A stretch of 64,000 nucleotides of DNA from Sclerodactyla briareus (taxonomy: Eukaryota; Echinodermata; Holothuroidea; Dendrochirotida; Sclerodactylidae), in contig JAODTK010005873.1 of assembly GCA_026419785.1 (NCBI GenBank), positions 62,001 to 126,000 of the forward strand. Direction: 5' to 3'. This document shows positions 3,541 through 48,600 of the stretch, in pieces. The notes beneath the pieces were generated by a model, which was given only the letters and a program-made list of their open reading frames with translations, did not search any database and had not been told where the DNA came from. Numbering within the stretch: position 1 is the first letter of the stretch; every line of letters starts with the position of its first letter. Made by a program: the position numbers and the translations under genes.

Positions 3541-5520
3541 ACTATCCAGTGAGTTGAAGGTGTCTACTAACCTCAGGTTTGCAAGACCCAGAGCCACCTG
3601 ATGACACTGCCAAGGTGAAGGGAAAAGAAAAAAAAGATCTCAGTTTTTGACCTCAACCCTATCCCCCAAGCCCGGGATGACTCAACAGTGGAGTTCAAGA
3701 TGCTAATTCTGCGCCCAACAGGGCCAAGGCGTCTCCAAAGATGCTGGAAAACTTGACGTTTTTAAAATGCAATGGGGGCATGTCCTCAGCTTCTAAGGCC
3801 AATACTTGTGCACGTATGAAGAGAAACGGGTAGGCTGCGTCAACTACTGTATTACAACAGTATATTAAAGTAATCTTGTCTTTACATGCAGTCAGGGGCG
3901 TAATACGGGGGTGTGACACACCCTGAGATATTGAAAGTCGGTCCCGTAGCGTCAAAAAGGCGGTCTCTGAGCGGCCCAGAAGCCGATTTTGAAGGAACCT
4001 TGAATAGACTCCTGAAGATAGATGTTCGTGAACGAGGAATGCCATAAAAACTAACAAAAGGACCGTTGTTTCCCGAAAGCCACCTACGGAAAGAAAGATT
4101 GCAACCCCCCCCCGTGCGTGAAAAAGTAAAAAAAAAAAAAAACAACCGAATAAAACCAACATACAAAATAGTCAATCAAAAAAGTTCGTCCCAAAAGTTC
4201 ACACCCCCCTGAAAAAATCGTGTATTTACGCCCCTGAGTGCAGTCACATGATCAGATCATCCAGGTCTTGTTCAGTTTCCCCCCCCCCCCCCTTTGCGTT
4301 GAATGTGGCAAGTCCAAAATTGCAAACTCGTGCACATGCTATGGGTGTGATAAAATGATCCTCTTCCTGAAAAGTGACATCCTAGAAAAATCTACTGTAT
4401 CGATTCTCAGTAGGAGTTCTTCTTATTATGATCTGTCTCTGTTCTATTTTAGTGTCAAAGAAAGAGCAGTAGATACTGAAGAAAAGAAAAACAGGATTTG
4501 TTGATGTAATCTGGGGTCCATTTCTGATTATTGGGACAACAACTTGTTAGGCTCGCACCATCTTGCATGTGTTAGTTAGGTTGTGCGGTAACACCAAACA
4601 CAGGAAACGAAATAGATAATGAATCTTATCGGTTCTCGGACCGTGTTTCGCGTTCAGCGGGTGATTATGTCAGGGATTTAGTTTGTTTCAACCATCTTGA
4701 TCTGAGAGCAGATCAAACAGCTGAACAGCAGGTCGCTAGCAATTACATTGCCAGCCCCTCTACACGTCTATGCGGCTTCATCACAATCAAAGTGATCGCC
4801 AAGTCTCATTCTGAAATTCGTTAGGCGGGACTAAAACTGTTGAGGACCGGTGTATCGGTCAGGATCGGTTTATTCCCTCAAGTTACCTGGGTGGGTCCCA
4901 GGTGTTGTGTTATATATACAGTTAGTAACCCACCGGTTTCTCCTCATGTTAAAAAAGGTTTTTACTGTGGGAAGGAAACAAAAAATCGGTGACAACTATT
5001 TTGAAAAATCCGGGGCAATTACCAAGCAACCAATTTTCACTTCATCCTGTGCATTCGGAAATATTAAAGTGATGGATTTTCATTGAAACTGGTGCCGGGG
5101 GGATTGGTTTACCTTTAAGAGGTATGATTTAAAATTTTGCAACAGTGATTGTGCCTGATCGGTACACTTGAATCGGCTGCTCTGAAATTCTGTGTCTGGG
5201 TTTCGACTGTCATAATGTATATGAATAGAAGGTGGTACCAAAAGTCCTGTCTCATTTACATGATTGACCACTTGGGACTGTACATTTAAATACGGCCTGA
5301 CTGCCTTCTTCTCAAGGGAAGCCCACAAAAAAGGAACCTTTTATTTTCTTTACTAATGCCAATTACAGGAATGGGTTGTACTGACCATGGTCGTTATCGT
5401 TCACATATGTTTATGATTATGATTGTTTCACCAGTTGTTAATTGTGAACTTGTACAGTATTTATATATTTATCATATAATCTGTAATAGAAGTGCCCCCC
5501 CCCCCTTTTTTTTTGACATT
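3541..5520. other. Non-coding DNA with C-runs
   Basis: I recognise no gene here. A 14-base C run lies at 4279-4292 and an 11-base C run at 5495-5505. The short open frames show no motif. Confidence 0.4.
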
Positions 5521-5524
5521 CCAA

Positions 5525-5765
5525 TAAGGTTAGGAAGCATATTTCACCGAGTAACGACAAAAATTAGTCCTGAACAGTGTACACAAATGTATAGGTTTGG
5601 GAAGTAGCCTAAACAGTGTAGTATAGGAAAGTTTCGGAAGCCTATACCGCAAAATTGTATTTTTACCTTAGAAAATTACCCTCAAATATCCCCCCCCCCC
5701 CCCCTCGTTGAAAAATGTAAAATTGCCCACGGGGGTTTATTACAGATTATACAGTATGCTGAAAA
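5525..5765 (+). repeat. Dispersed 240-bp repeat, copy 1 (family A)
   Basis: The block begins near ggttaggaagcatatttcac and ends near attacagattatacagtatg, with a 15-base C run at 5690-5704. Two further copies in the same orientation lie at about 29745-29995 and 34005-34230, both inside KATNIP introns. All three have the same internal order: a gaagtagcctaa-like stretch, tactgcaaaatta-like text, a C run, then gaaaatgtaa. No coding capacity or terminal repeat was seen. Confidence 0.8.
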
Positions 5766-7430
5766 TATTACTTCGTCAAATTGGGGACATTTCCTCACTA
5801 TTCATGATTCCTTAAAACCTAATCTCAAATTTCTCAAAAAGCGTACAATTTCTAGCCAGGCACACCAGGGGAAATGCTATTAACATTTCTCGGCATCTGC
5901 AAATTAGGTACATTCTATAGGAGTTCTAAAGGAATTGAAACGAGAGTGTCCATGACACAGAGCTCACCTACCAGAAAATGTGGCAAAGTAATAGAATTTT
6001 GTGTGAAATTCACAAACACCAATGAAATTTTCATAGAGACTTCTGTTACACTTAATTGTACCATTAAACCTGTTCTGCATAAGTAACAAATTGACTATTT
6101 CGAACAAAATGACCCAATGCTGATGCATAGATGGATGACCTTTCACTTCAAATTCCCTGGAACCACAGATGGTACTACTGGTCATGATTATACTAACTGG
6201 TCATGATCGTTCCAATCAATAGGATGGAGCGGAAGACATTTGCAGTTCAAACCAAAAATGGTCAAATGACTCCTTTAGGCAACCTTTAACCTGAAAACTT
6301 TCAGACGTTTCCTCAAAATGATGATACATTTCAGGCACTGATTTGAACTGTATGAGAAGCCGCTTTGGGGACCATCGAACAAAAATGGCAAAATAAAGTG
6401 ATCATGTGAGTTTCATCATGATCGACCACGCAAGGTAGGAGAATTTGCAATTGATAAATTGTGAACAGATATATAGATAGGTAGATAGACATGCAGGATC
6501 ACAATAACTCCCCAGCACATTCTAGATGGCAATTCCACTATTTCAACCTTTAAGATCAGGTTGGTTGAAAATACCAAATGCAAAATGAAAACAACCATGA
6601 TAGCGAAAAAGGCGAGACTGGTGGTTCATCCAACCAACTGTCTACATAATCAACAGGAATGTTGAAAAATTTTTCCCTCTATGTGACAAGTGTGAAACCT
6701 CTTATTGTTAATCTGGCTATCTAAGGTTGACAGTACTTGTACCTTTTCGGTTTCTAGTTATGGTCTTACGGAAAGCCCAGACGCAAATAATGTTGTGTAC
6801 AGGCTTTTTGCCTGATGACATGAGTAGGCTCAACTGAAGAGTCTCTACAATGAGGGACACTTCAGGGGTAGACCATTCCATATCAATAAGCTGTGCGCAA
6901 GAATAATTCTCAAGTACAAAACTTTAACAGCATGTATTATTATTATTGGGCCCTACCACATATTAATTGGCTGGCAGTATGTATAATTTGTCTCCATTCT
7001 CTCGATAAACAGAACAACTCATACCAGGTTGCCCCTTAAGTATACACGGAATGAGCAGCTGACGACTGCACGCATGGGTGCTTGAGTCACTTAAAAAGTG
7101 TCGAGAACAGATAACATTAAACCCAAGCTGGCGGTGACATATGGATCCTCGTTCCATAATGAAATATACCGCTACTGGCTTACTGCATAGATGAACTATT
7201 CCTAACTGTTTAACGTGGGGATTAACTGTACTATGTGTAGCAATTAGTGTTCAAAATAGGCACTGAAATATTTTGAGATTAGCGATCAGTTAGGCGCGCA
7301 CACGGTGTGTAACACATTATGTAATTTATCAAGCTCGTTAGCAAGAGTGCGGATGAAGCGTTATACTGCTACAGTGATTTGGTTTGGCACATAGGGATTA
7401 GGTAAAGGATATATAAAGTAAATGAACTGA
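5766..7430. other. Non-coding DNA, nothing recognised
   Basis: No conserved coding segment, RNA gene or clear repeat boundary was seen. There is only a short agatag-type microsatellite near 6470-6490. Confidence 0.4.
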
Positions 7431-15690: not shown

Positions 15691-15723
15691 GAGTCCGGTC
15701 TCGGTATCGAGACCGGTCTCGAG

Positions 15724-16363
15724 GTCCTTTTTTTCAGTCCATCGCCCTTCTCTTTTTGCCAGGCTAGTTGTCTAGTTGGTTGAGTTTTTGGCTCTTAAGA
15801 TATTCGCCCAAAAAATCGTTCCTAGTAGCGTTTTTCTGGCTTTCTATCATCCTTCTTACGTTCGCTGGAATTTGTCAGCGTTTCGTCACCTTTCGTTCAA
15901 GTATCTCTTCACTTACGTGAGTTTTGAAAGGTTTCGAGTCCCTTTTTTCAGCCCATCGCCCTTCTCTTTTTGCCAGGCTAGTTGTCTAGTTCGTCGAGTT
16001 TTTGGCTCTTAAGATATTCGCCCAAAAAATCGTTCCTAGTAGCGTTCTTCTGGCTTTCTATCATCCTTCTTACGTTCGCTGGAATTTGTCAGCGTTTCGT
16101 CACCTTTCGTTCAAGTATCTCTTCACTTACGTGAGTTTTGAAAAGTTTCGAGTCCCTTTTTTCAGTCCATCGCCCTTCTCTTTTTGCCAGGCTAGTTGTC
16201 TAGTTCGTCGAGTTTTTGGCTCTTAAGATATTCGCCCAAAAAATCGTTCCTAGTAGCGTTTTTCTGGCTTTCTATCATCCTTCTTACGTTCGCTGGAATT
16301 TGTCAGCGTTTCGTCACCTTTCGTTCAAGTATCTCTTCACTTACGTGAGTTTTGAAAGGTTTT
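15724..16363 (+). repeat. Three tandem 214-bp subrepeats
   Basis: Three nearly identical units begin at about 15724, 15937 and 16151. They are recognised by repeated atcgcccttctctttttgcc (spacing 213 and 214), gctcttaagatattcgccc and ggaatttgtcagcgtttcg. A single diverged unit recurs at 37050-37250. Tandem subrepeats followed by a short leader are typical of promoter or untranslated regions of retroelements, but no transcript start can be read here. Confidence 0.85.
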
Positions 16364-17194: not shown

Positions 17195-18355
17195 GGCTCG
17201 CGGCTCTGGAAATCTGGGCTTCGTTGTTCCGCGGTTCGCACCTCTGAACTTTGTGGCTCCGGGCCTCGTGGCCCGCGGCTCCAGGCCTCACGGCGCCGGA
17301 TGTTCGGGCCTCGTGGCCTCGCGGCTCCGAGCCTTCGGCCCTGGCATCATGGCTCCGCAGTTCCACACCTCTTGGCTTCGCGGCCCGGGCTTTGTGGCTC
17401 TGCGGCTCGGGGGATCCGGACTTTGTGGTTACGGTTCTGGGCATCATGGCTCCGGGCGTGATAGATCCGCGGCTCCGCACCTCGTGGCTTCGCGGCACCG
17501 GGTTTCATGGCTCGCTGCTCAGTCCTCCGCGTCTCCGGCCCCTGTGGCTCCGGCCTCTGCGGTTCCGTCCTCCGCGGCTCCGCTTTTCCGGCATCAGTGA
17601 CTCTGGGCTCCATGGTTCATGCCTTCGTGGCTCAGGTTTCTGCGGCTCAGGGCTCCGCGGCCCCAGCCTTCTGCGGCTCCGGCCTCTGCGGTTCCGGACT
17701 CGGCGGAGACCGCGGTTCTGGCCTCCGCGGTTCCGGCCTCCGTGGCTCCGCTGTTCCGGGTTCCGCGGCTCTGGCCTCCGGACCTCATGGCCCCAGACCT
17801 GGTGGCCTCAGGTGCCGCACCTGCAGGCTCCTCGACTCCGGCCTCCGTGGTTCCAGCCTCCGCGGCTCAGGTCTCCGCGGCTCCGGCCCCGGCGGTTCCG
17901 GCTCCGGTTTACACAACCCGGGGATCTGGCCTCCGGACCTCATGGCCCCAGGCATTGTGGCCTCAGTTGCCGCAGCTGCGGGCTCCTCGGCTCCAGCCTC
18001 CGCGGCTCCGGATTCTGTGGTTCCGGGCTCCGCCCTCTGCGGTTCGGCAAGTCCAGCCTCGGCAGTTCCGGCCCCCGCGGGTCTGCGGTTCAGGGCTCCA
18101 CCCTCTGCAGATCCGCAGTTCCGGCCTCTGCGGATCTGCGGTTCCGGTCGATGCGCTCCGCGGTTTCCGGCCTCCTCGATTCCGGCCTCCGTGGGTCTGC
18201 GATTCCGGGCTCTGCGGTTCCGGCCTCCACGGGTCTGCGATTCCGGGCTCTGCGGTTCCGGCCTCCGTGGGTCTGCGATTCCGGGCTCTGCGGTTCCGGC
18301 CTCCGTGGTTCCAGCCTCCGCGGCTCCGGATTCTGTGGTTCCGGGCTCCGCGACT
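17195..18355 (+). repeat. GC-rich minisatellite, about 15-bp unit
   Basis: Degenerate head-to-tail copies of a 15-base unit near ggcctccgcggttcc fill this stretch. Between about 18183 and 18300 three copies of a higher-order unit of about 38 bases (ggcctccgtgggtctgcgat...) occur in a row. The unit length is a multiple of three and the unit is poor in T-A-purine triplets, so several frames on both strands stay open over hundreds of codons. These frames translate into Gly-Ser-Leu-Arg or Pro-Arg-Glu repeats. I regard them as composition artefacts rather than genes. Confidence 0.85.
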
Positions 18356-27600: not shown

Positions 27601-30600
27601 TTTTATTAGTCCGTTGCCGGTCAAATCATGCCCCACAATTCAAGAAAAGTGACACACCCCATAGTCAATCTGAAGAGACCACCGACCATAACTCCCAAAA
27701 CAACTGACTGATGATGATTGCCTCACCCCACTATCACAATTAGTGACTGAGAACACTGGTACAATGACAGGTAGTCACATGGCTACTGGACAAGACCCTA
27801 CAGTGACTCAACTGTCTTGATGGGCAGCTGTAGGATCCACTACAATGAGAACAAGAGGCAATCCCGGAGTGCAGATCTCATCAGCAAATGTGGAACTAAT
27901 AATTTGTTTCTACTTGGCTACCTTTTTGCGAGTTGCAAAAGGACAAAATTTATCAAAATATGCTGAAAACAGCCATTTTCCCGCAAAAATATTCATATTC
28001 ATGGAAATTTCAGAAAATTTACAGCTTAAAGTTGGGGAACCCTTTGTTTTGATACTTGGTACCTTCTTCTGAAATTTGAAATCATTGATCATTCGTCCTC
28101 CAATCTCTAAATATTCCCAAAATTGAACAGATTTCAGAAAATCTCAAATTTGATCCAAAATCTATTTTTCCCCCTGAATGAAATTGACATTTTTGGTAAT
28201 TTTGGGCTGATTGCATGGGAAAAGTTGTTATTTGTGCCTTTTACATTGCTACAAAAAAAATTTGAAATCCCCTTAAGCAATCTGGAATAGAGAATATCTT
28301 GAAAAATAGTGAAAACTTGTAAAAATGAGGAATTGCCCCAAAATTTGTCTTTTGCCTCCTAAATTCCCCAATTTGGATAGTTTCCGTCTAATTTTGAGAG
28401 CAACCATGTGTTCAGTGACTATTCAAGCGTGTGCGAAATCTCACTTTGTTCAGCCACTCCAAAATGGAGATATTTGCGAAAACCATCAAAAATCTGACGG
28501 ACCACGCAAACGCACACACACACACATACCTGTGTAGGGCGCCAGACGGGGACGCACAAACGGACATTGATCTTTCACCTATGGAAATGGGGACATCAGT
28601 GCAAAACCTACATAGGGGTACCCCTACCCACTACAAGTATCATTTTTAAGCAGTTTTAAGGGAAACACAGGAACCGGGGATATCCCCCATTCCGTTTTTT
28701 TTGTGGAGCGTTTTCCTATGGAAACGGGGACAAACAAACGGGGATATCCCCGTTGCGCGGCGTTGTCCCCCAGTTACGTGGAAAGGATCCGTGTGTGTCC
28801 CCGTTCTACTGGATCCACAAACGCACACACACACACGCACACACACAAACGGACACTTTGCGAGTGCACCTCATTGCTGGATCACCCAGCACCCATGGGT
28901 ACCCCACCAAGGGTTACCCCTCAGTGGATAGTTCCAAACCACCACGATGGTTACCATAGCAACCATTGCTATGGCAACCAGCAACAGTAAATATAGGTGA
29001 GATGGCAAAGTGACTACAATTTCTCATCCGGCCCTTCGGGACCGTTGAGATAATAATAGAAGCCTAAGACCCCATCCGATTTCCTTGGAGAGTTTGATTG
29101 CTCAGGTTGAGGTGGTGCAGACTACTCGAGCATACACACCTACAAAATTCATTCATCTTCACAGATGTGTAGGTGAACTCTTTTACTGATCAACCTTTTA
29201 AATAGAGAACTTCTTTCATATATAACTCTTCATAAATGGGTGTGTCGAAGCTTTCATTCTGAAATGTTCTGCCGTAAACGGTATTTAAAGGCAATGGCTT
29301 TTTAGTGTTTCAACTTGAGAGTACTACATGAGGTCTCATGTTGGTGAATTTCATCAACCTAATAAAACCCACAAAAGAGTATGTGTGATGTGTTGAAGTC
29401 CTGTGGAAACCTGATAATATTGACTGATTTGGCACTTGTTTGCCCACTCTTTTCTATTTCAGTGAAGAGTTTGAGATCCCTGTCTTACCTTATGGCCAGC
29501 AAGTGAGGATACTCATCAAGACATCGTGGGGTGACAAGCACTATGTGGGACTGAATGGCATAGAGGTCTTCCTCAACAATGGCCAGCTTGCCCCTATAAG
29601 AGCCCCATGTACGCTCAACATACAAGTCCTCACTTGAGTTTGTTCATTGGAGAGCAAGCATGGAACTTCTGATCAATCCCATTTACTTTTTGAGGTCAGA
29701 GGTCATCCTTGGCAGCGGTCACAAAATTCCTTAGGAATGTTTCAGTAAAGGTTAGGAAGCATATTTCACCAAGTACGATAAAACAATCAGCCTTGAACTG
29801 CTGCATGCGAAAATGTGTATTTGGGGTTAGCCCTAACACAGTGTAGTATATGAAATTTTGGAAGCCTATGCTGCAGAATTATATTTCTGCCTCATAAGTT
29901 TACCCTCAAATAATTCCCCCCCCCCCACCCTATTTTGAAAATGTAAGTCCCCTTCTTCTCCAGGGCATTTATGACAGGTTATACAGTGTTATATTTTCAT
30001 CCTTCATAGATCACTGCTGATCCTCCCGACATTAACACCCTAGAGGAGTATGATGCTGACCCCAGGGTGGTCAGTAATCTGATAGACGGTGTCAATCGCA
30101 CCAGGGATGACATCCACATGTGGCTGGCCCCCTACATCCCCGGACAGAACTCACTGGAGATCACTTTCTCCCACCCTGTCAAGGTCGCAATGATAAGGAT
30201 ATGGGTAAGTGACAGGGCCAGGCAGAAGGCACATGGCAGACTCATAGTAATAGCCGCCTCAGCATTGGTCAATATTTGTGCTCCCTTCATGATAAAAATA
30301 CTCCAGAGGGTTGTTTAAAGTGGATAACAATATCTGAGTTCAACTGAAAGCAGAAAGACTTGTTGCTGCTTCAGATTAGGATTATTTATATGCAGTTTGC
30401 TCGGCCCTCTCTCACAAAGACAGTTTGTATTGTTTGCACAGTGGTCACTGAAAAAACAGAATGAAACATGTAGATATATCACCATATACATTTCAGTGTC
30501 TAATGTTATTTTGATGCTATAGAGACTAAATGGAATTTCACGTAATTCAAGATTCGATTTCAATGTCTGTTCTCTATGTTAATATGAGTGGTAGAGCAAC

Positions 30601-33600: not shown

Positions 33601-36600
33601 GAGTTTATGGGAGGCGTTACTACAAAGATTTTACCAATGACCGCCCTGTTTTCCCTAACTCAAATTGAGGATTAGAGATTAGGCAGAGATTAGAGTCACC
33701 TCAACCAAACAGGAGTACCGGCGCATTGATCCCAAAATACTGTTGGGCGTTAATGGCTTTCTGTCCTGCGGGTGACTTACCCCCTCCCCCCACCTCCATG
33801 TTGAGATACCTTCATGAAGCATGGCCTAGATTACTCCTTGTACCTGGGTGTGAGATCGGAAGCTGAGAAGAAGTGAAGATCCAGGTTTGCAGTCTTGTAG
33901 AAACCCTTGTAGGAAATACCCATGCACAATCTGAGAATATTACCTATAATCACCAATGAGTGTCCTATTCTACTAAATACCTCCTCTCTCCCCCTTTGGA
34001 ATGTTTTAATAAAGGTTCAGAAGCATGTTTCACCAAGTAACAATGCAAAAACAGCCCAGAACTGATGCACACACACACATTTATAGTATTTAGGAAGTAG
34101 CCTAACACATTGTAGTGGATGAATTTTTGGGAGCCTATACTGCAAAATTATAATTTTGCCTCAGAAAATTACTCTGATGGCTTTGAAAATGTAAGGCTCC
34201 TGGGGCACTTATTACAGATTATATATATAAATAACTTGCACCTCATATAATCGTTTACATTTCTGATTTAATTTCTGTTTGTTTGCAGACCATACTCTTC
34301 ACAGAGGATGAAGATATCCTGGAGCTGATCTCCAAACATGATGAAGCATACATCTCCCAGACCGAGACTGGTTCAGCTCGAGCATGGAGGATGATCTCAT
34401 ACCAGAGAGACCTAGGATTGTCGATGAGGGCGAGGTAAGCATTCAATAGGTTAACCTCTTACATTCTGAAGCTCATATCGAGGCATGATGAGGCATACAT
34501 CTCCCAGACCGAGACTGGTTCAGCTCGAGCATGGAGGATGACCTCATACCAGAGAGACCTAGGATTGTCGATGAGGGCGAGGTAAGCATTCAATAGGTTA
34601 ACCTCTTACATTCTGGAGCTGATCTTGAGGCACGCTGAGGCATACATCTCCCAGGCTGAGGACTGGTGATGAAGCATGTAGGATGACCTAATACCAGAGA
34701 GACCTTGGACTGTCGATGAGGGCTAGGTAAGCATTCAATAGGTTAACCTCTACATTGTGGAGCTGATCTTGAGGCACGATGAGGCATACATCTCCCAGAC
34801 CGAGGACTGGTTCAGCTCGAGCATGGAGGATGACCTCATACCAGAGAACCTAAGATTACCGATGAGGGCGAGGTAAGCATTCAGTAGGTTATGGTGGTAA
34901 CCTCTTACATTCTGGAGCTGATCTTGAGGCACGATGAGGCATACATCTCCCAGACCAAGGACTGGTTCAGCTCGAGCATGGAGGATGACCTCATACCAGA
35001 GAGACCTAGGATTGCTGATGAGGGCGATGTAAGCATTCAATAGGCTATAGTGTTAACTTGTTACAATCTGGAGGTGATCTTTGAGGCACAATAAGGCATA
35101 CATCTCCCAGACTGAGGACTGGCTCATATCCATCATGGAGGATGACATCATACCCAGAGAGACCTAGGATTGTCGATGAGGGCGAGGTAAGCATTCAATA
35201 GGTTAACCTCTTACATTCTGGAGCTGATCTTGAGGCCGCTGAGGCATACATCTCCCAGGCTGAGGACTGGTGATGAAGCATGTAGGATGACCTAATACCA
35301 GAGAGACCTTGGACTGTCGATGAGGGCTAGGTAAGCATTCAATAGGTTAACCTCTTACATTCTGGAGCTGATCTTGAGGCACGATGAGGCATACATCTCC
35401 CAGACCAAGGACTGGTTCAGCTCGAGCATGGAGGATGACCTCATACCAGAGAACCTAAGATTACCGATGAGGGCGAGGTAAGCATTCAGTAGGTTATGGT
35501 GGTAACCTCTTACATTCTGGAGCTGATCTTGAGGCACGATGAGGCATACATCTCCAGGCCAAGGACTGGTTTAGCTCGAACAGGGAGGATGACCTCATAC
35601 CGAGAGACCTAGGGACCCTGCTGAACAGACCCCCCGGCCCGACCCACTTGTCCAATGGCAACGCCCTTCACAACGGACAAACCGCCTCCTATAGTTTTTT
35701 ACGAGAGTGGTGTATTGTTTTTTCTGCGTACACAGATAAGGACCCGGTGGATCCTTTGAGTGCCACACCCTAAGGCATACCTCTCCCAGCCTGCGGACTG
35801 GCTCATATCCATCATGGAGATGCCATCATTATACCCGGAGAACCCTGAGGGTCTCGTATGGGGTGTTATTGTTTGTTGTGGAGTGGCTTGTATGCGGTTT
35901 TGGTAAAATAGACGTAAGCATTCACTAGGTTATGGGGTTAACCTCTTACATTCTGGAGCTGATTTTGAGGCACGCTGAGGCATACATCTCCCAGACTGAG
36001 GACTGGATCATCTCAATTCGCTTTCTTTCAACCTCTTAGATCAGGTTGTTCGAAAACGTACACTTCATGAGTCAACAGCATTCGAACCAAATAGAAAATC
36101 AGGCATATTTTCCTATTTAGGAACCCAGAAATTGCATCCAAAATCCACTTAGGAAACGAGTGACGATGTTGAAACTCTGTGGAATATTGACGGAACGTTA
36201 CACATAAGAAGCTACAACATCGTGCTCATTTCAACCAAGTTTACCGATACTCGCTACGTTGTCCACCGAATCAGGATTATACTACTGAAGATTGAAGGCA
36301 GAATATTTTCAGAAATATGTACATGCTAAGGAAAGAAACAGTCAGAATAGGGACGGCCACTCCCAGAAATATCTAGGTGATTGAAATCACTCATGATGGT
36401 AGTAATTTTCGCTGGAAAATTTGTTAAGCATATCAAAGAAGGTGAGTTGTTGCCTCCAGATCTCTTAGGAGAACAATAAACAACTGCCTAAATTCCTTTT
36501 ACACAATTATACACCACACAGAATTGACAGGATTACCACTTACATCTTCCTACTTCTATTCAAGTCAGACCTGACGTACAACAAAAACTTCAGCAATCCT

Positions 36601-39600
36601 GTTGCGTGATTCATCTGTGAATGAGGCGATATTCACACTCAGTTTGTGGTGCACATCCACGGGATCCTACTGCATGAAAAAATATGTATTGCTCGATACC
36701 GATTGACACTCACACACACTCATGGAACGCACACTATAACTTGCTCAAATTCACAACGTGAACTCGAACCCACAACCAGTGGATTGTTAGCTCAACAGCT
36801 CACCAAATAATCAGCATGCAATTAGCTACCTGCTGATTGGCTACTCATCAAAGTGAGCAATCACTATGAAGTACCAATGGCACAACCTCAAAACCTGCAA
36901 CCGGTGTATTCAAAAATGTGAAGAGATGTGATGTATTGAGGAAATACAGCAATCTATTTCATCATTAACATTACCTCCCATGGACTATGACACCCACCCA
37001 ATGTCACGTTAGCTTCTGGCAATTGCACAAATCCCGGGTGGCCACCCCATTGCCCTTCTCATTTTGCCATGCTAGTCGTCCAGCTTGTCAAGTTTTTGGC
37101 TCTGAGATTTCCACCTGAAATTGTTTCTTATTAGCATTTTCCCTCGCTTTCATTCATTGTTGCATGTGTTTGCTGGAATTTGTCAGCGTTTACTACCCCT
37201 TTCATTCAAGTATCCTTTGATTTGCATGAGTTTTTAAGGGTTTTTATTCTCTCTCCACCGCAGTTCCCTGCGCGGTGTTAGCCTAGCTTCTTGCCTCGCT
37301 GTAGTGCTGTGCGTACTGCAGTATCCATAATTCACAGATTCCCAAACTGGTTCGGTTTGGTGATTTTATCATCGTCATCATTTTACCTTCACTCTGTTTC
37401 CAGGAGAGACCATTCACCACTGCCCGCAAGTTCAGAAAGAAGAAGAGCGTTGATGAGCGGGGCATGCCCAAGGCCAGGTCTGACTCTGCACTGCTTGAGG
37501 CGACATTCACCTCCCGTCCTGGAAGAGCGCTACATTCCCAGCGCTATGGAAAGGCCAGTCACTGGTGCTGTGGCAGGCTTACGGGTAGAGGTTAAGTTGC
37601 TTTGATGTTGTTGCCTAGGATGAAAAGTGAAGAATATCTAAGGGTGATATCGTCAAACAGGTAGGTATGTAATGTGTCATTACAATTGACTCATTCATGT
37701 TATGATTTCAAAATTTCTGGGAATTCGCTTCGGTTTTATCTGGAAATGGAAGAGTTGACAGAGAGGAACCAGAGTCATTGATGATTCGAGCAGCAGTAGT
37801 TGTAATGCATCCATAGATACATATATAACACTTCATTAGGTCATCCATAGAATGGAACTACAAGTCTGCAATGGAATGATATGACGATTACTAAAACACA
37901 GATGAACATGAGAACAGCTGGTCAGTTTGAAATTACAAATAGGTTGAGTGGACCATGTATAATGAACATGTGAAATAGTTAAGAGAGTGTGAAATGTAGC
38001 TGGTGGGGAGGGAGATGAAACTTCCTGGTAAATCTGCATTGTAAAGCCTAATTGCATCACTTATGAATGTAGAGCATCCTGTGTTAGTACGAGACACTAC
38101 AACCCTCAGTGGACCACTATGACGGATAAGATGTTCAAAAAGGTGCTGCATGGTCATTCCAAAATGACTTCAATGTTGCCATTCAGAATCAGGTATTGCT
38201 TTAAAACATTCACAACATTGTTCACAACATTCACTCCACATCAAAGCGATGTGTCCTGACTGGTTATGTCTATTAAACAAAATTCACCTTTTGAGAACCA
38301 TAGCTGGAAATATACATCTCTGTTTCAGACAATTCGGCTGATTCTGACACCTACCTTTACACTTGTAGAACATTCTCAAATATGTACTGCCGTCTATAAT
38401 AAATCAGTCTGGTTTCTTTCATTTCATCTTTCTATTTACAAAAGAAAAATATATATTAAGAAAACAGAACAATTAAAATAATGTCATAATCTTCTTTCCA
38501 ATAGATTTGAAGTTGGTTTTTACTGCTACCTGGGGTGACTATTACTATCTAGGGCTGACAGGACTAGAAGTGATGGACTCGGACGGTGGGGCCCATAGCC
38601 TTCAACTTAGACCAGATGAATGCAGACCCAAGGGACCTGAACATATTACCAGAGTATGGGTCAGATGACAGGACTCTAGACAAGTAAGTGTATACTCGAG
38701 CCATCGTCTTATATACTGTATTCATTGTCTTACATATTGTAGTCATTTTCTCATATGCTTCATCCATTTGGTCTTATACTGCAATCGTCTCATAAACTGT
38801 ATTCGTTGTCACATATACTGTATTTATGTCTCACATTCTGTATTCGTTGTTCTATATACTGTAATCGTTGTCTTACATACTGTATTTGTGGTCTCATAAA
38901 CTGTATGCACTGCCTTATATATTGTATTTGTTGGCCTATATATTGTATTTGTTGCCTTGTCTCTTGTCTGCTCATTGTATTCCAACCAAGGGTGATCTGG
39001 AAACATGAGCAGTGAGTCATTTTTGCATACATGCATTTCTGCTTCCTTGCAAACAGTACCTGAATGCCGCCTCGCTGGACACAGCGTGAGTGACTGGAAC
39101 AAAGAAAAACCCAGGCACCTTCCACCCCAACCTCCGCATCAAGGTTCCACCATACCATAGAGGCATGGCCAAATTTGCAGCTGACACCTTGTGTACATCC
39201 AGGTCTGCACCCTAGCCAGTGCTTGCATTAGTTTGAGACTGTATGCCAAAAGGTGGCAGATTGGCTCAGTCGGTAGAGCTGCGAAGATCAATTGATCGAG
39301 TTCAGACCCGATCGCACACAAAGGGCTTATTCTGTGCTGGTGTTGGAAAAGGCCATGTACCATCTTGATATGCCTTACACTCAGATTCATGTGGATTGGA
39401 GTTTGAACCCATTAATGATATCAATAAAAATACTACTCATGTAGTGCTGCACAGGAAATCTGGAACATACGAAAACAAGTATGAATATAAACCTATGAAT
39501 CCCATAATGTAAGTACATAGACCTCTCAAGTTAAAACAAATAAAAAATTCCTCATTTTGAATTTCAACAGTTTTATCAATGTGTAGACATGAGATTTACC

Positions 39601-42600
39601 ATCTCAATTTTGTTCAATTTCTAATTGATCCAGGGTCATTGATGGTGAAAATATCACACGTCAGATGAGCACATGTGGATGATACCATTCTCTGAGGGGG
39701 AGGATCATACTCTGACAATCGACTTGAGAGACAAGGTGCAGATATCTGGGCTCCGCATATGGAACTACAACCACAAACCCTGAGGATACGTACAGAGGTG
39801 TAAGTATCACTTACAGTCATGTTGTTCCTGAATTGAACAAAGGTAGTGAAGTTTGGTATGGATTATACGTTACTTCACACAAACGGAGCGAAACAGGCCT
39901 GCCCTGCTGTAGGTGTGGTGTCCCATCCCTTCGTGTTCAGGCTGTCAGGACCAACCTTTGCATGCTTTAAAATATGAGGCTAGTATGTGCCGCATTGCAA
40001 CTTGGAATTAATAATTGTCGTGGCTGCTACGCCCCAACCTATAGTGGCACTCCGCCTTGTTCTGGTGACGACAGTGCCACTGTCTTAGTTTGAGTCTGGT
40101 GATGCCACTGCCAATACTCTGCGATTCCGAAACTGGGGCTTTGGGAAATGACGAAATGTCAAATCAGGAAAAATTGGCCTTGATAGAGGGATTCCATGCA
40201 GCCACCTTAAGAGAGGGGGTTCCATGCAGCCACTTCGATGAATGGGTGGCACACAAGCCACCTTAGTAGATGGGTTCTTTGCAGCCACCTTAAGAGAGGG
40301 GGTTCCATGCAGCCAACTTTGTAGATGGGTTGTATGTAACCACTTTAATAAATGGGCTCCATGCAGCCACCTTTGTAGATGGGTTGTATGCAACCACTTC
40401 AATAAATGGGTTCCATGCAGCCACCTTTGTAGATGGGTTGTATGCAACCACTTTAATAAATGGTTCCATGCAGCCACCTTTGTAGATGGGTTGTATGCAA
40501 CCACTTTAATAAATGGGTTCCATGCAGCCACCTTTGTAGAGGGTTGTATGCAACCACTTAATAAATGGGTTCATGCAGCACCTTTGTAGATGGGTTGTAT
40601 GCGACCACTTCAATAAATGGGTTCCATGCAGCCACCTTTGTAGAGGGTTGTATGCAACCACTTTAATGAATGGGTTCCATGCAGCCACCTTTGTAGATGG
40701 GTTGTATGCAACCACTTAATAAATGGGTTCCATGCAGCACCTTTGTAGATTGGTTGTATGCAACCACTTTAATAAATGGGTTCATGCAGCCACTTTGTAG
40801 ATGGGTTGTATGCAACCACTTTAATAAATGGGTTCCATGCAGCCACCTTTGTAGATGGGTTGTATGCAACCACTTTAATGAATGGGTTCCATGCAGCCAC
40901 CTTGGTAGATGGGTTGTATGCAACCACTTAATAAATGGGTTCCATGCAGCCACCTGTGTAGATGGGTTGTATGCAACCACTTTAATAAATGGGTTCCATG
41001 CAGCCACCTTTGTAGAGGGTTGTATGCAACCACTTAATGAATGTATTGCGTGCAGCCACCTCGTTAGATGGGTTGTATGCAACCACTTTAATGAATGGGT
41101 TCCATGCAGCCACCTTGTAGATGGGTGTATGCAGCCACCTCATTAGATGGGTTGCATGTAGCCATTGTAATAGATAGGTCGCTTGCAGCTCTCCTAAAAG
41201 ATGGGTTCCATGCAGTCACTTTAATAGATGGGTTGTATGCAGCCACTCTAATAGATGGGTTGCTTGCAGCCCTCCCAAAAAATGGGTTCCATGCATCCAC
41301 CTTAATAGATGGGTTGTATGCAGCCACCTCGTTAGATGGGTTGTATGCAGCCACCTCGTTAGATGGGTTGTATGCAGCCACCTCGTTAGATGGGTTGTAT
41401 GCAGCCACCTCGTTAGATGGGTGTATGCAGCCACCTCGTTAGATGGGTTGCATGTAGCCACTGTAATAAATGGGTTACATGCAGCCACCTCAATAGGTGG
41501 GTTGCAGGCAGCCATTGTAATAGATGGGTCACTTGCAGCCCTCCTAAAAGATGGGTTCCATGCAGTCACTTTAATAGATGGGTTGTATGCAGCCACTCTA
41601 TTAGATGGGTTGCTTGCAGCCCTCCCAAAAAATGGGTTCCATGCTTCCACCTTAATAGATGGGTTGTAAAGGTGTTGTAAAGTTTATTGTCTTACCATCC
41701 TACATTTTTAACAAAGAGTCAGGATCATTGGAGATCATTCAATGGTGTCTAATTTACAAAGACTGTGCACATTGAATTTGGTAGGCTTGGTTTATCCTTA
41801 GTCTTGAGAATTTTCAAGGTCTCTGGAGGTCATTAAACTTGTCTAATTTCCATAATTTATGCAGAACGTTTGTCAGATTTTCATGGAACTTCGTGGGGTA
41901 TGTATACCTTTAGTCCTACAAAATGTTAGCATATATTTGGGTCATCAAATGTGTTGAATTTGCATAATTTAGACAATTTTCAAATTAACATTTCTACAAA
42001 ACTTGGTTCTCCATGGTGTAGACAACAATCACACTGATGAATTTGAAAAATTGGTCGCTGTCAAACTATAACCACCCCTGTAAGGCTTTGGATTTGCTGA
42101 ATATTATCTGGTAACTGGTAAACTCCAGGATTAGGTTGTTGAAATCACTGATCGCGGAAAAAAGGCGAGACTAGCAATTCATGAACCCATTTGTTGAGAA
42201 TTTATTGTGTTTTTCAGGTCATTAGATGCTGTGATCATCAATATTTCTTTTGTGGTAGTGTCAGAAAGAGGTTTCGAATATTAATTTAAAAAAATTAATC
42301 ATGCATACTTTTTGTTACCTCTGTAATGTATCAATAATGATATGTTCTTCTCTCTCTCAATGGTGGTTAAAATAAATAACTTATGCTAGATTCAGTATGT
42401 TGTGGTGTTTCAAGTTGTGTTTTGACCTTTCGGCATATTTGCACATGCAGGCCAAGACGATGCATGTGTTCCTAGACAACCGTCAGCTGTCCCCCAAGAA
42501 CGGATTCCTGATCCGGAAGGGGCCGGGAAACTGCTGCTTTGATTTTGCCCAGGAGATAACCTTCACAGCTGACAGGAGGGCAGAGCAGCAGTGAATCGAG

Positions 42601-45600: not shown

Positions 45601-48600
45601 TACAATGGTCATGTATGTTTTACCCAACCTTTGGTACTTGCTATTTACTATATTATGGAAGCGATTGAAACCCACAGTTTTACAACATTTTACAAGTTCT
45701 ACAAAATGCAAAATTACCCTTGTGATGTATTGTGTAATCATCTGTAAATACAAAGTCAGTGTGGAACATGTACTTTTGAAAACCTTGTGAAAAACAAACT
45801 ATAGGTGTGACCTGGAAAAAAAAACTTACGAAGTTGTAATAATATAAATGATATAAAGATCATTCTCATTCATTTCTATGTACAGACTATTCTCATTGCT
45901 GACTTCATGTTATGGCACAAAATGCATTCACTGTGTAGGGTCTGTGCATGGCAGCCTTTCCACCCCTCCCCCTTCCCTGTCTGTTGATGTCATAGATTCC
46001 CCATCATTGAATTGAATCAACTTCTCATGGCAACATGATAAAACTTCCAAATTGAGGTGTGGGGTGTCTGGGGTTTTTTTGTGTGTGTGTCCTCCTTACA
46101 CCTGTGCTAGCTTTAGAATGTCTGTTACTTGACCATTGGACTTCAGAATATTTCAGGGAAACGTCAATCGTCTCACTTTCAGATGTGGCGCATACCCACC
46201 GAGTATCAATGTGCTTGAAGGAGTGGATGGCGATCATCGTACTCCAGATAAGCTGATAGATGGCATCAGTGACTCTAAGGATGGGAGGCACACCTGGCTG
46301 GCTCCAATACTACCAGGAGTGGTAAGCAGCCATGAAAAAAAATATATTTAGCTGGGCATGTTTGTTTCTGTTTATGTTTATTCATGCTCCATATGTTCAA
46401 AACACAAGTGGGAAAACAAACGAATAATATGTAGTGGCAAAACGAAAGACAGATTGTATGATGAGTCACAGGGGCAACACCCATAAGGCTAAAGGATGGC
46501 CCTTTAGGATAGGGCTCCACATAAATAATTGCACAATCAAAAGCACACAACAAAAGCTCAGCAAACACCTGGTGTCACTGAGAGAGGTCAATGATTTAAT
46601 GAGCTATCAATCAAAACACCAAGATATGTTACTATCTTTCTAACAGAAAAATTGTAGTTGCTGCTAGTAGTTATCCTAAATTCATCAATGTTTTTTCAAG
46701 TTTGTGGTTTGCATTCATCCTGCTACATCCTCGAAAAAATCCAAGGAAATGGTAGTCTGAATGAACAGTAATTAGACTCTTCTTCGTAGGTTTTTGTCTT
46801 CCTGCATCACCATGGTGACATTGTATGACAAACACCAATTTTGGACTATGGAGCATCATGAAATGCTATCTACCTACCCACCTCACATTCTCCCCTGATC
46901 ATCAGGGCTGGAAATATCCTTCTCACATTTATAGTTTCTCCATTACAGATCAACAAAGTGTTTGTTATCTTTGATGAGCCAGTGACGGTGTCGATGATCA
47001 AGCTCTGGAACTACAGCAAGACACCCTGGAGGGGAGTCAAAGAATTTGGGGTAAGACCACCACTTCCTTATCTATTCACATTTGTTGGTTCAGATGGTTG
47101 AATTCACAACAAGATTGTAATCATTTGCCCATTTGGGAAACTGAGTTCAATGGATTCAGAGAGCCACTCTCAGCTAAGGGACATGTAGGGGCTAACTCAA
47201 AAAGTGATGAGGATTTAAGCATATTAATTCAATCAAGTGGTTGGAACCACACTTGGCAGCATTTACAGGCTGTGCAGTCTAGCAGAGAACTGGCATCCAG
47301 GTTCTTTCGGCACAAGAGTTCAGCCAGGTGTCGTTATTCCCTTGAGATTATCCCCCCCCCCCCCCTCCTCCTACCGCCTCCTCCCCAGCTGCCAGCTCAA
47401 CGCTGCTCACAGCATGTGTCCCACACTTTCCTTTCTTTCCTTTTCCTCTCAACTGGGGGCCCAGCATTCACTGGCATACATCATGATTCTTTGTATAGGG
47501 GTGTGTGCTATTGCTTTACCTGAGAATTAGAAAATCATACCCAATGCCATTATGCATGGTGCTCTGCAGGAGCACAAAGTAGGGAAACAACTAGATGATG
47601 GTGCTGCTAGGCAAAATCTAGCAAAAATTCAGTCAAATACTAATTAATGTTAATAAGAGTGAATTTGATAACGGCTCTATGTATCTGCTTTGCAGCTCTA
47701 CCTAGATGACTTGCTGATCTACAACGGGATACTAGGCCAGGTGTCGACAGGAGCCCGGGGGATACTCCCGACGATAGAGCTACCAGCTATACCATAACAT
47801 ACGTTCACAGATGACCTAGAACTGGTACAGCAGGAGAAACATACCATTATACAGTGAGTATTGGTTGGCAACCCAACCGCTGATGCATACTGCTGATGCA
47901 CCATTCTGTTTACCGTTGTTCTGAAACTTGCTCCAAGAGGATCAAAGCAGATCGTGGAATTGAATGGATGAGGCTGCGATTCCGTAAATGCAGATGTTGT
48001 ATGCAGTAGGACACGATAAATGGTGGATTCATGCGAGTACGAACAGGGAACATGAGCTGCAGTTGGTTTGCAGAGACAGAGATAGAGACAAGTTCTGTTA
48101 CAGCAAAAATTCATCCAAATAGAGTGAAACAAACACAGAGTAGGCAATATTGTCATGTGTATGGATGCAGCAGGAACGCAGCATCACGCATATTGATTCT
48201 ATGGAATATCTTCCTAATAGAGCAATTCATCGTCTATTTTCAATGCTTGCTAGATATTTATGGCCCTTAGTTTAATGAATGAAAATATCAACCTCCCTCG
48301 CAAAAATTAGATTTTCACATTCATACCACATCTGTATCTATGGAATCCCAGCCTGAGGTGTATCAGTTTTAGTTGTCATGTTGAAATAGTGCCACATGCA
48401 GCAGCTCCATTTGAAAGTCCCCTTCAGTGCACATGAAGTAACACGCTTAGATGGTGTGTCAAGGAGTGGAGAGCAAGAGCAGCAGACTAATATAGTATGG
48501 ATGTGACAACTATGTTAGTAATGATCAGGGCCAGGGGTAAATCTGTTAGGCGATTTGAGACTGTTTTTTCATTGTAAAGTGCTTATAAAAATTTGTTCTG

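Follow-up and report, generated by a model that had tools for sequence, protein, structure and literature searches.

Duplications that cross an exon-intron boundary can carry splice signals with them. In the case described in PMC4974935, as far as that account goes, the duplicated segment contained a functional 3' splice site, and a new intron resulted. Tandem exon duplication, in the form treated in part of PMC9013439, sets a copied exon beside its parent in its own gene, while mutually exclusive exon clusters consist of similar exon-like units that adjoin one another. The locus analysed here resembles each of these systems, since its duplication likewise spans an exon-intron boundary with splice signals carried along, lies beside the parent exon in the same gene and consists of adjoining exon-like units. 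With intronic minisatellites (VNTRs) it shares imperfect head-to-tail units of 144-156 nt, a second-order duplication and one decayed edge. The window, meaning the whole stretch of 64,000 nucleotides of Sclerodactyla briareus that was analysed, is read here as containing an intronic minisatellite, born by tandem duplication of the 3' part of an exon with its donor and normally spliced out. The probability of this reading was put at roughly 0.7.

The gene around the array is well supported by its sequence as KATNIP-like, and for the exon of the array itself this assignment is less direct. A genome-wide profile search with PF14652 (DUF4457) gave eight matches in the assembly, all of them inside the window and on the plus strand, which places the gene among the DUF4457 proteins and agrees with the KATNIP identity proposed in the first-pass annotation. 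Six of seven peptides cut from the window scored above the cut-off of this profile, and the peptide of the array exon matched nothing. A stretch of human KATNIP used as query could be aligned collinearly with the window (e.g. 74% over 46940-47053), but matched the array exon only weakly (62% over 21 residues, E 0.10). The two exons that flank the intron are the following.

34289..34434, plus strand: parent exon of the KATNIP-like gene; assembled length 146 nt, with the acceptor tttgcag before it and the donor gtaagc after it
37404..37580 (end approximate), plus strand: next exon, reading ERPFTTARKFRKKK, with one match in the assembly

The single match of exon 37404 indicates that the assembly contains no second haplotype of the locus.

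Tandem repeats finder (TRF) reported the array at 34319-35613 with a period of 147, 8.7 copies, 86% matches and a score of 1810, and a direct-repeat family search agreed with it. When the exon was used as query against the assembly (319,486,128 bases, 3,171 contigs), 10 matches were obtained, all at window positions 34289-36014. Both the TRF score and the ten matches at one locus place head-to-tail repetition above chance. Eleven units, whole or partial, could be placed, of which all except the degenerate U10 were matched by the exon query; the partial ones are U9 and U11.

34319..34465, plus strand: U1, exon 3' part with 31 nt of intron; carries a one-G gap in common with U2
34466..34612, plus strand: U2, 94.6% identical to U1
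34613..34756, plus strand: U3, four in-frame stops
34757..34911, plus strand: U4, linker 8 nt longer; one-base gap close to the end of the exon part
34912..35067, plus strand: U5, the sole complete unit open from CTG to the donor; donor context GAT/GTAAGC
35068..35217, plus strand: U6, of the CTCATATCCATCATGGAG type; two one-base insertions
35218..35361, plus strand: U7, no mismatches and two one-base gaps against U3
35362..35516, plus strand: U8, two mismatches against U4
35517..35613, plus strand: U9, shortened, ending near 35613; six mismatches against U5
35614..35754, no strand: non-unit stretch inside the array; query 35604-35765 matches itself alone in the assembly
about 35755..35952, plus strand: U10, degenerate, U6 type; 46-column insertion before the donor
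35953..~36018, plus strand: U11, partial; the array stops midway through its exon-like part

The unit starts at CTGGAGCTGATC, 30 nt into the exon, in agreement with the first-pass annotation, and is made up of 117 nt of exon-like sequence (as measured in U5) and a linker of at most 39 aligned columns. The copies are without the first 30 nt of the exon and without its acceptor. The linkers are either short or, in U4, U5, U8 and U10, 8 nt longer. GTAAGCATTC, which includes the GTAAGC donor, was found at nine places, the original donor counted. These results confirm what had been noticed on first reading, namely a tandem array of about ten copies, a unit formed of the exon's 3' portion and the first bases of the intron, a gtaagc donor kept in most units and the loss of the original acceptor from the copies. 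Clustered substitutions divide the units into three types: U3 with U7, U6 with U10, and the remainder.

The array also contains a second-order duplication with an offset of 605 bp, including a direct repeat of 200 nt at 99%. Mismatches between the paired units rise rightwards, from 0 (U3/U7) to 2 (U4/U8), 6 (U5/U9) and 31 (U6/U10). The first-pass annotation had described units 3-5 as duplicated in units 7-9 at an offset of about 605; the duplication and its offset stand, but because U6 and U10 have CTCATATCCATCATGGAG in common, the duplicated block was probably U3-U6, four units rather than three. The mismatch series suggests that a block of four units was duplicated once and has decayed or been disrupted toward its right end, where the non-unit stretch lies.

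From this arrangement we infer both how the array expanded and how it is handled in splicing. A tandem duplication would have taken the 3' 117 nt of the KATNIP exon together with about 30 nt of intron, so that the donor was included and the acceptor left out. Unequal exchange or slippage may then have grown the array to about ten units, and later a block of about four units would have been duplicated once more. The original donor (34435) would join exon 37404, and the array is likely removed with the intron because its units have no proper 3' splice site.

Other repeats were also seen in the window and in the assembly. Another KATNIP intron (40178-41668) holds a 1.5-kb array of 27/54-nt units, with 27.6 copies of 54. 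The stretches 15715-16362 and 17524-18352 contain three copies of a 214-nt unit (97%) and a series of G+C-rich arrays with units of 15/23/38 nt. Among five sampled 10-kb stretches (period of at least 10, at least 3 copies), one contained two large minisatellites (4584-5906 and 8897-9852 of L044, periods 58 and 16), another (L047) one 31-bp array, and the other three none; in this small sample, minisatellites are thus not rare in the assembly. A dispersed repeat was present at 33990-34230, 29729-29906 and 5526-5682; a query that covers it had at least 41 matches in the assembly, where 40 of 148 candidates were scored. Copies of it lie close to the exons at 34289 and 30010, shortly upstream of their acceptors.

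The putative acceptors of the linkers are weak. They read GAG in eight of nine units and AAG in one, versus CAG in seven and TAG in two of nine KATNIP acceptors, which were picked by eye for comparison among about a dozen likely exons. The sequence preceding the pseudo-acceptors has a pyrimidine content (0.59-0.71) that overlaps with that of the real acceptors (0.53-0.88), and this overlap counts against reading the array as inert. So do the donors, which nine units retain (in five cases as GAG/GTAAGC) and which could be recognised by the spliceosome. A copy with its own 3' and 5' splice sites, as in tandem exon duplication, was not found among the units, where nine donors are accompanied by GAG or AAG acceptors only. 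Splicing between neighbouring copies would imply introns of 36-45 nt, and an in-frame TAG is present in all nine linkers. The proposal that the final AG of the linker could act as an acceptor is not supported, given G (8/9) or A (1/9) at position -3 and introns of only this length.

Variable columns were distributed over the three codon positions as 13, 9 and 13 of 39 each (chi-square p 0.63; a small sample of eight complete units). The third position shows no excess, so that these units give no indication of coding constraint. Variation in the linker does not exceed that in the exon part (7/39 versus 35/117 columns, p 0.21). By eye, the differences between the U6 and U11 types are partly synonymous, which counts against an inert repeat. 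Only U5 among the eight complete units has an open frame, a count for which the indel rate of the assembly (about 10 per kb) could by itself account. The suggestion that the protein gains variable copies of an acidic segment is not supported, with a single unit open as assembled and no third-position excess.

The accuracy of the assembly was checked on tubulin genes. Frameshift-aware alignment of four tubulin loci (L036, L037, L039 and L040; L038, L041 and L042 were left out of the seven matches) gave 13, 4, 12 and 15 frameshifts, 44 in total in 4,604 nt, which corresponds to 3.5 to 13.4 per kb by locus and about 10 per kb overall, although some of the scored loci could be pseudogenes. L036, however, agrees with alpha-tubulin in 355 of 376 residues and carries 4 frameshifts. 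Stops were also found in at least 6 of 14 rows of HSP70 matches. The tubulin frameshifts point to an unpolished assembly with poor base accuracy, and at such rates it was computed that error alone leaves a 117-nt unit with an in-frame length 40-69% of the time. A G present in U3-U9 and U11, overlooked in the first-pass annotation, is missing from U1 and U2, and its loss in U1 leaves the parent exon frameshifted as assembled. Given the tubulin rate, both this missing base and the open or closed state of the units carry little weight, and single-base indels at the locus, including that of the parent exon, cannot be taken as biology; for the G loss common to U1 and U2, the same chance error twice is less likely. 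The second half of exon 37404 reads well in another frame. A rescue of the frame, in which the one-base loss in U1 is offset by a one-base gain in exon 37404, is not claimed, as both may be errors. Several KATNIP exons shift frame as assembled (judged by eye), and two of the eight PF14652 matches contain a stop; the gene was nevertheless not taken for a pseudogene, since tubulin exons of the same assembly change frame likewise.

Such base accuracy raises the question of whether the array itself was made or distorted in assembly, i.e. whether a real but shorter repeat had its copy number or its second-order block inflated by an error-prone assembler. The lack of mismatches between U3 and U7 would fit this, but read errors do not create clearly distinct unit types, and identity among U1-U8 is about 87-95% outside the duplicated pairs. 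The window and the loci contain zero N, and with its 1.7 kb the array would fit within a typical long read, provided that such reads were used; an assembly origin is considered unlikely. The nine preserved donors, five in a GAG/GTAAGC context, bring in a different possibility, in which the eight extra GTAAGC sites act as decoys for U1 snRNP and by this competition make correct splicing of the exon less efficient or more variable. This appears improbable, as the original donor comes first after the true acceptor, and splicing from one further on would cut the protein short through the in-frame stop of every linker.

Splicing of the units as alternative exons that add variable copies of the acidic segment is very improbable. 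U5 is open and phase-symmetric, and U6 would be open apart from its two one-base insertions, which could be errors; against this stand the absence of a normal-type acceptor, the short distance between copies, the in-frame stops in U3 and U7 and the absence of codon-position bias. It would be a long shot that U5, and perhaps U6, enters a fraction of transcripts through a weak linker acceptor, so that the number of TEDWFSSSMEDDLIPERPRIVDEGE-like acidic segments is set by the length of the minisatellite. The intronic minisatellite is supported by the array with its unit boundaries, its occurrence at one locus only, the even spread over codon positions, the similar variability of linker and exon part, G or A at -3 in all nine units against C or T in all nine KATNIP acceptors, the TAG in each linker, the rightward rise in mismatches and the similar minisatellites at 40178-41668 and in L044. 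A functional reading of the array gains no support from these results, which are most simply explained by an intronic minisatellite that arose within an exon.

If real, the locus would be a clean example of a minisatellite that starts inside an exon and seeds the intron with donors that have no acceptors. A more useful lesson concerns draft genomes: before the reads have been seen, neither reading frames nor one-base gaps of this assembly can serve as biological evidence. The array departs from each of the described systems. In an intronic minisatellite (VNTR) the unit is plain intron, whereas here it is recognisably exon plus donor. Compared with tandem exon duplication as covered in that part of PMC9013439, the 3' part alone was copied, without the acceptor and about ten times. 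Mutually exclusive exon clusters differ from the present array, in which no unit has its own acceptor and 36-45 nt separate one copy from the next. As opposed to the new intron of PMC4974935, to the extent that the case is described there, the duplication at this locus copied the donor, and a good acceptor is absent.
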